From Candidatus Nitrosopumilus sp. (GTDB lineage Archaea > Thermoproteota > Nitrososphaeria > Nitrososphaerales > Nitrosopumilaceae): DNA of 64,000 nucleotides. Position numbers and translations under genes: made by a program. Under the pieces are notes generated by a model, which was not told where the DNA came from, ran no database searches, and saw nothing but the letters and a program-made list of their open reading frames with translations. Positions 34,380 to 57,866 of the stretch are shown here, piece after piece. The first letter of the stretch is position 1. Each line of letters starts with the position of its first letter. The DNA is taken from assembly GCA_029864235.1 (NCBI GenBank), contig JAOTTW010000002.1, positions 1 to 64,000 of the forward strand, in the 5' to 3' direction.

Positions 34380-34453
34380 TGGGCCCGAAGGGCTTCGATC
34401 CCTTGGCTCACCGGTTATGAGCCGGTTACTCTACCAAGCTGAGTTACGGGCCC
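34380..34453 (-). tRNA. tRNA with CAT anticodon (elongator Met, or Ile2)
   Basis: The minus strand folds with acceptor GGGCCCG/CGGGCCC, discriminator A, anticodon stem ACCGG/CCGGT and loop CTCATAA (anticodon CAT), and T-stem AAGGG/CCCTT. It lacks the three G-C pairs and A1-U72 of archaeal initiators, so it is an elongator Met or the agmatidine-modified Ile2 tRNA. The T-loop reads ATCGAAG, with A at position 54. Confidence 0.9.
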
Positions 34454-35177: not shown

Positions 35178-35185
35178 TTTTATGG
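35178..35185 (+). promoter_or_regulatory. TATA-like box before tRNA-Glu
   Basis: A TTTTATGG stretch lies 23-30 bases upstream of the first base of tRNA-Glu, the expected archaeal promoter distance. Confidence 0.35.
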
Positions 35186-35207: not shown

Positions 35208-35301
35208 GTTCCAGTGGTGTAGACCGGTCAAGCATACTGCCCTTTCAAGGCAGTGATCCCGGGTTCAAAATCTAACGATGAAAATCCCGGCTGGAGCACC
35301 A
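35208..35301 (+). tRNA. tRNA-Glu(TTC) with 15-nt intron in the T-loop, CCA encoded
   Basis: The acceptor is GTTCCAG/CTGGAGC with discriminator A and an encoded CCA (35299-35301). The anticodon stem is CTGCC/GGCAG with loop CTTTCAA, anticodon TTC. The T-arm is interrupted at 35270-35284. Around the insert, the outer helix is CCGGG/CCCGG, the central 4-bp helix is TTCA/TGAA, and the two 3-nt bulges are AAA and AAT. The inner 2-bp TC/GA carries a TAAC loop. Cutting after the second base of each bulge restores T-loop TTCAAAT. Confidence 0.93.
35270..35284 (+). other. Non-canonical tRNA intron (T-loop, between positions 59 and 60)
   Basis: A 15-nt insert within a complete bulge-helix-bulge motif (4-bp central helix, two 3-nt bulges) in tRNA-Glu. 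Removal gives a normal 7-nt T-loop. The splicing endonuclease that recognises this motif is known in archaea; it is not encoded in this window. Confidence 0.88.
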
Positions 35302-35342: not shown

Positions 35343-36194
35343 TTGAACAGGAAAAATTTTGAGATTAATCCTTTACTTGAAACCTATGGTAAGTACATAA
35401 AGCAAATTGACCATGCGTTAGACAAGGAATTAGCATTATACTCAGAATCTGAGTTTATTGAACCAATAAAGTATTCTTTAGATGGAGGCAAAAGAATTAG
35501 ACCGATAATTTTGGTTTTAGCAGCTGAAAGCGTAGGTAAGGTAGACGGAAATACTTTTGCAGCATCATGTGCAATTGAATTTTTACATATGGAATCTATT
35601 ATTCATGATGATATCATTGACAATGAGACAATGCGCAGGCAAAAGGATCCATTCCATATCAAATATGGATACAATACAAGTATTTTAACGGGTGATTTTG
35701 TTTTAGGTTTGATTCTTGCAATTTCATCAAGACTTGACAATGCAAGAATAACAAAGGATTTGGCAACAACTGCTATGCTGATGAGTGAAGGAGAAATAAT
35801 TGAAGGTAGACTAGAGACCAGCGAAGATGTAACTTTTGATGATTATCTCAAAGTAATTGAATACAAAACTGCTACTGCATTTGAAGTGGCAGCAAGGATA
35901 GGAGCTATTATTGCAAATGGCACAGAAGAGCAAATCGAGGCTCTAACAGAATATGGAAAAAATATTGGAATTGCTTATCAAATCAGAGATGATTTGCTTG
36001 ATTGGAAAAATGAAGACAAATTGTTTAATTTTCTAATAAAGAAGAGTTCTGATCCAAGAGATGTTTTTAACAAGATGGAAGAGCTATTAAAGAAATACTC
36101 AGACAAGGCAAGATCTGGATTGAGAAAAATACCAGATAATGAGGCTAAAGTAAATCTAGAAAATTTAATTAAATTTACAACCTTTAAGGCATAA
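35343..36194 (+). CDS. Second trans-polyprenyl diphosphate synthase
   Basis: A 283-residue prenyltransferase starting at TTG 35343. Aspartate-rich motifs are IHDDIIDNETMRRQKD and YQIRDDLLDWKNED, with GGKRIRPIILVLAAE at the substrate site. It is distinct from the enzyme in the mevalonate cluster. The chain-length residues before the first Asp motif (FLHMESI) have small residues, so a longer product (quinone side chain) is possible but not shown. It is divergent in position from the tRNA and converges with nuoN, overlapping it by 11 bases. Confidence 0.92.
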   Translation: MNRKNFEINPLLETYGKYIKQIDHALDKELALYSESEFIEPIKYSLDGGKRIRPIILVLAAESVGKVDGNTFAASCAIEFLHMESIIHDDIIDNETMRRQKDPFHIKYGYNTSILTGDFVLGLILAISSRLDNARITKDLATTAMLMSEGEIIEGRLETSEDVTFDDYLKVIEYKTATAFEVAARIGAIIANGTEEQIEALTEYGKNIGIAYQIRDDLLDWKNEDKLFNFLIKKSSDPRDVFNKMEELLKKYSDKARSGLRKIPDNEAKVNLENLIKFTTFKA

Positions 36195-57789: not shown

Positions 57790-57863
57790 GGGTCTATGGC
57801 GCAGCCAGGTAGCGCACCGGACTTTTAATCCGGTTGTCGTGGGTCCGAATCCCACTAGACCCG
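57790..57863 (+). tRNA. tRNA-Lys(TTT)
   Basis: Acceptor GGGTCTA/TAGACCC with discriminator G, D-stem GCGC/GCGC, anticodon stem CCGGA/TCCGG with loop CTTTTAA (anticodon TTT), and T-stem GTGGG/CCCAC. The T-loop reads TCCGAAT, so position 55, nearly always U, is C. CCA is not encoded. Confidence 0.93.
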
Positions 57864-57866
57864 CTC

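Follow-up and report, generated by a model that had tools for sequence, protein, structure and literature searches.

A predicted 15-nucleotide bulge-helix-bulge intron in the T-loop of the tRNA-Glu(UUC) gene of an ammonia-oxidising-type archaeon

The T-loop of the tRNA-Glu(UUC) gene is split by a 15-base intron in this ammonia-oxidising-type archaeon, whose DNA we analyzed in a window of 64,000 nucleotides. In our reading, to which we give a probability of roughly 96%, the gene would yield a precursor with a bulge-helix-bulge (BHB) intron between positions 59 and 60 that is cut by a two-subunit endonuclease and joined by RtcB. The gene, its BHB, the conservation of that structure, covariation between exon and intron, natural intronless orthologues and the genes of the enzymes are all observed in the genomes compared. 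Counting against this reading, the inner helix of the host is just 2 bp long and a few relatives deviate from the pattern.

Layout of the gene and structure of the insert

The locus comprises the following features, all on the forward strand:

35178..35185 (+), box-A-like element TTTTATGG, 23-30 nt upstream of tRNA-Glu(UUC)
35208..35301 (+), tRNA-Glu(UUC) gene with a 15-nt insert in the T-loop and an encoded CCA
35208..35269 (+), 5' exon, positions 1-59, of the same sequence in close relatives
35244..35246 (+), anticodon TTC
35259..35263 (+), 5' strand of the T-stem, CCGGG, which is the BHB outer helix
35264..35267 (+), exon strand of the BHB central helix, TTCA, positions 54-57
35268..35270 (+), 5' bulge AAA, predicted cut 35269/35270
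35270..35284 (+), 15-nt intron ATCTAACGATGAAAA between T-loop positions 59 and 60, missing from the orthologues L057 and L072
35271..35278 (+), inner hairpin TC-TAAC-GA, which differs among relatives
35279..35282 (+), intron strand of the BHB central helix, TGAA
35283..35285 (+), 3' bulge AAT, predicted cut 35284/35285
35285..35301 (+), 3' exon, positions 60-76, with CCA at 35299-35301
35343..36194 (+), isoprenyl diphosphate synthase gene, the downstream neighbour and a marker of orthologous loci

The original prediction had placed a CCA-encoding tRNA-Glu(UUC) with a 15-nt T-loop insert at exactly these coordinates, and our analysis bears this out. The acceptor stem (GTTCCAG/CTGGAGC) forms seven pairs, the D and anticodon arms are intact, and A73 is followed by CCA, while the T-stem CCGGG/CCCGG encloses 22 nt instead of 7, reading TTCA-AAA-TC-TAAC-GA-TGAA-AAT. 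Neither ARAGORN nor Rfam at its curated threshold calls the unspliced gene; with 35270-35284 taken out, ARAGORN returns a clean tRNA-Glu(ttc). A BHB consists of two 3-nt bulges on opposite strands, with a 4-bp helix between them and an outer and an inner helix on either side. The insert has this complete form, with the central helix TTCA/TGAA (4 bp) and the inner helix TC/GA (2 bp), and excision at the bulges leaves a normal tRNA; by standard T-loop numbering it lies at 59/60, a non-canonical position, that is, other than 37/38. When possible BHBs across the locus were enumerated, removal of the 15 nt was the only one, among those lying wholly within the tRNA, to give a tRNA-Glu call. The bulges of the host sequence are rich in A and four cut registers lead to an identical product, so spliced reads alone cannot fix the cut site, which the differing bulge bases of the relatives do. 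A self-splicing group I intron, which is built around a large catalytic RNA core, was rejected, since 15 nt is the whole of the insert and the window gave no match to any Rfam intron family.

The box-A-like element, which we take as the putative promoter of the gene, is retained in 16 of the 17 aligned genes, the exception being L057, which has TTTTATGA instead. A second, intact UUC gene, which together with silence of the present copy was named beforehand as an observation that would speak against the intron, was looked for in the host genome (1.68 Mb in 115 contigs, 99.7% complete) and none was found. Its sole other tRNA-Glu has the anticodon CUC, is intronless and carries the ordinary T-loop TTCAAAT, and the cell probably depends on the interrupted gene.

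Other tRNAs of the host genome also carry inserts, of 12 nt in Ile(GAU) and 13 nt in Ser(GGA), and a Met(CAU) tRNA in L156 has a 15-nt BHB insert of the same architecture in the D-arm, the unspliced form of which ARAGORN likewise misses. With these 12, 13 and 15 nt in one genome and orthologous introns of 14-22 nt, a length of 15 nt, thought at the outset to be near the minimum, turns out to be unexceptional in the lineage. Separately, a tRNA in L154 has apparent inserts in the D-arm and the anticodon region and receives no ARAGORN call, and a low-scoring tRNA in L155 (68-158, reverse strand), called as Phe(GAA), has a long variable arm; an ordinary tRNA-Phe is present in L138.

Conservation and covariation among relatives

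We searched 121 genomes, the host and 120 relatives, and matched the gene in 106. Most readable UUC copies in the family of the host have an insert of 14-22 nt exactly at 59/60, and the orthologous gene carries it across most genera of that family; the record titles include Nitrosarchaeum, Nitrosopumilus (among them Ca. N. salaria BD31, L275), Cenarchaeum, Nitrosotalea and marine group I thaumarchaeotes. In all 17 aligned genes the isoprenyl diphosphate synthase gene lies directly 3' of the tRNA, and NuoL is found about 2.4 kb past the tRNA in the genomes compared by coordinates; because of these shared neighbours we judged the locus to be orthologous. Among the 53 distinct inserts of the relatives, 49 have a 4-bp central helix and an inner helix of at least 2 bp in a fixed register, as against 0.15% of shuffled inserts, and one of the four that fall short (L175) is a false pick-up without an intron. 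The inserts are related and the counts are not independent trials, so that 49/53 is not a probability. The BHB fold predicted from these sequences exceeds chance, and the structure originally described for the host, with its three helices and its AAA and AAT bulges, stands. All four central pairs are retained in 50 of the 53; the helix is reduced to three of four in L099 and L100, from outside the family, and in one Cenarchaeum version (L084/L209) the inner helix lacks its first pair when the register is applied strictly. The inner helix differs on both strands, occurring as TC/GA, CC/GG, GCC/GGC and TCAG/CTGA. Pattern matches in bacteria, Pyrodictiaceae and Altiarchaeota were discarded as intronless tRNAs with a chance CCCG downstream, and the same insert in L265, a MAG labelled Chitinophagaceae, was set aside as probably from a contaminating contig.

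The predicted cuts, between the second and third bases in each bulge, are marked by evolution, since both bulges vary on the intron side only. In genuine inserts bulge 1 reads AAA, AAT or AAC, with AA (positions 58-59) constant and the third, intronic base variable, and bulge 2 reads AAT, AGT, ACT or ATT, with the third base constantly T60 and the first two variable. The T-loop of the intronless orthologues is the exact spliced product, and the T-loop TTCAAAT first proposed for the mature tRNA is supported by both observations. In L048, L049, L051 and L052, which belong to two genera, the exon TTCA has become TCCA together with a change of the intron TGAA to TGGA, and this replacement of T55-A by C55-G across exon and intron directly supports the pairing between the two. 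Position 55 of tRNA is normally U, modified to pseudouridine. C55 is also found without an intron in genus g17 (L112-L116), and a single clade of the C55 genomes was rejected on the NuoL tree (AU p 0.0085), which has long branches; C55 may therefore have arisen more than once, reverted or moved, although the long branches make this uncertain. C55 occurs too in tRNA-Lys(UUU) at 57790-57864 of the window and in tRNA-Lys(CUU) in L003, with the T-loop TCCGAAT, and the T-loop ATCGAAG (A54, G60) in tRNA-Met(CAU) at 34380-34453 on the reverse strand and in two tRNA-Arg genes located elsewhere in the genome.

Absence of the intron recurs. L057 and L072 have the orthologous flanks and no insert, while other sampled members of their genus have the intron; their union in one clade is compatible with the data (AU p 0.245), and since it is not rejected, one loss and two losses both fit. 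Genus g4 and G022 (L308) are intronless as well. Outside the family, L099 and L100 have inserts at the same site, L095 and L096 combine a same-site insert with one in the anticodon loop, and L089 has a same-site insert in its CUC copy.

Splicing machinery and alternative readings

Two host genes exceed the Pfam cut-off for splicing endonuclease. L126 resembles archaeal endonuclease chains of known structure, best of all 2cv8 (E 2e-42), and L127 is a divergent homologue; judged by sequence likeness, they appear to be the separate catalytic-type and structural subunits of an (alpha-beta)2-type endonuclease. By eye, alpha has a GPGIDHAPYL stretch with its His, and beta seems to have no matching His. 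A third match, L128, was rejected as weak and lying inside a methyltransferase-like ORF. Enzymes of alpha2beta2 type are assigned to Thaumarchaeota, a group linked to unusual introns (review PMC4090602), and a catalytic-type gene paired with a divergent second one answers, in outline, the question raised at first of whether the endonuclease is a type with relaxed BHB specificity; such a pair is of the two-subunit sort associated with non-canonical introns. The ligase RtcB is encoded by the host genome. We propose that the precursor would be transcribed with the intron in its T-loop, that the endonuclease would cleave after 35269 and after 35284, and that RtcB would ligate the exons into a normal T-loop, UUCAAAU. 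Because exon bases 54-57 are taken up in pairing with the intron, no elbow is expected in the unspliced RNA, and T-loop modification and use of the tRNA should both follow splicing.

According to RNAfold the unspliced sequence folds into a stable hairpin, and the case for splicing is drawn from comparison, so one could imagine that the mature tRNA keeps the insert and has an enlarged T-loop. We consider this very improbable: the BHB features persist while the inserts vary freely in length (14-22 nt) and in the sequence of the loop, intronless orthologues carry the exact spliced T-loop, and with bases 54-57 paired the D-loop/T-loop elbow could not form. That ARAGORN and Rfam miss the gene might suggest a dying or dead copy hit by a chance insertion, but the genome yielded no other UUC gene, the exons are identical in several genera and every stem is intact, which leaves this explanation scarcely credible. 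The 115 contigs of the host assembly could raise the suspicion of an assembly or sequencing artefact; it is refuted by dozens of independent assemblies, several of them single-contig, that contain either the identical insert or a variant, and its chances are negligible. Removal of the insert by splicing is the reading we keep. A further idea is that retention of the intron serves a purpose, such as a timing check holding back the elbow and T-loop modification until splicing. We think this unlikely; if true, such a check in the sole UUC-glutamate tRNA would explain why the intron is so widely retained and why exon and intron changed in a compensatory way.

Comparison with known introns

That some archaea carry introns at non-canonical tRNA positions, as the original prediction noted, is documented for Thaumarchaeota: tRNAscan-SE 2.0 models non-canonical BHB introns, and the main text of the survey counts 107 in genomes of this group (PMC8450103). 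These introns agree with ours in lineage, in the BHB principle and in their non-canonical position, and that main text has no gene-by-gene list against which ours could be matched. Our literature search found no paper giving position 59/60 for the tRNA-Glu(UUC) intron of these archaea.

Non-canonical tRNA-Glu introns of Sulfolobus tokodaii are cleaved in vitro by its own EndA at the predicted BHB (PMC4307357). They likewise concern tRNA-Glu(UUC), a non-canonical site and redundant borders, but the intron sits in the D-arm (PMC4307357) and that of the host in the T-loop. A BHB intron in the T-loop itself is known from pre-tRNA-Ile(UAU) of Cyanidioschyzon merolae, where it blocks Pus4 pseudouridylation of U55; this organism, however, is a eukaryote, and the T-loop intron is one of three in that gene (PMC9602550). 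A tRNA-Glu in a Micrarchaeota MAG (L261) is also interrupted at 59/60, by a 29-nt insert that has a TTCA/TGAA central helix, but its hairpin is longer and unrelated, and in this distant archaeal group the insert is likely an independent gain.

This work adds family-wide conservation, repeated absence and compensatory exon-intron change. The intron explains why a glutamate tRNA seems to be "missing" from these archaea when simple tRNA finders are used, and the comparative series of presence, absence, length change and compensation offers a test bed for the reading of a minimal BHB by a two-subunit endonuclease, and for the gain and loss of non-canonical tRNA introns. Set beside these systems, the predicted tRNA-Glu(UUC) intron is an ordinary, well-supported case of the known kind of non-canonical BHB intron.
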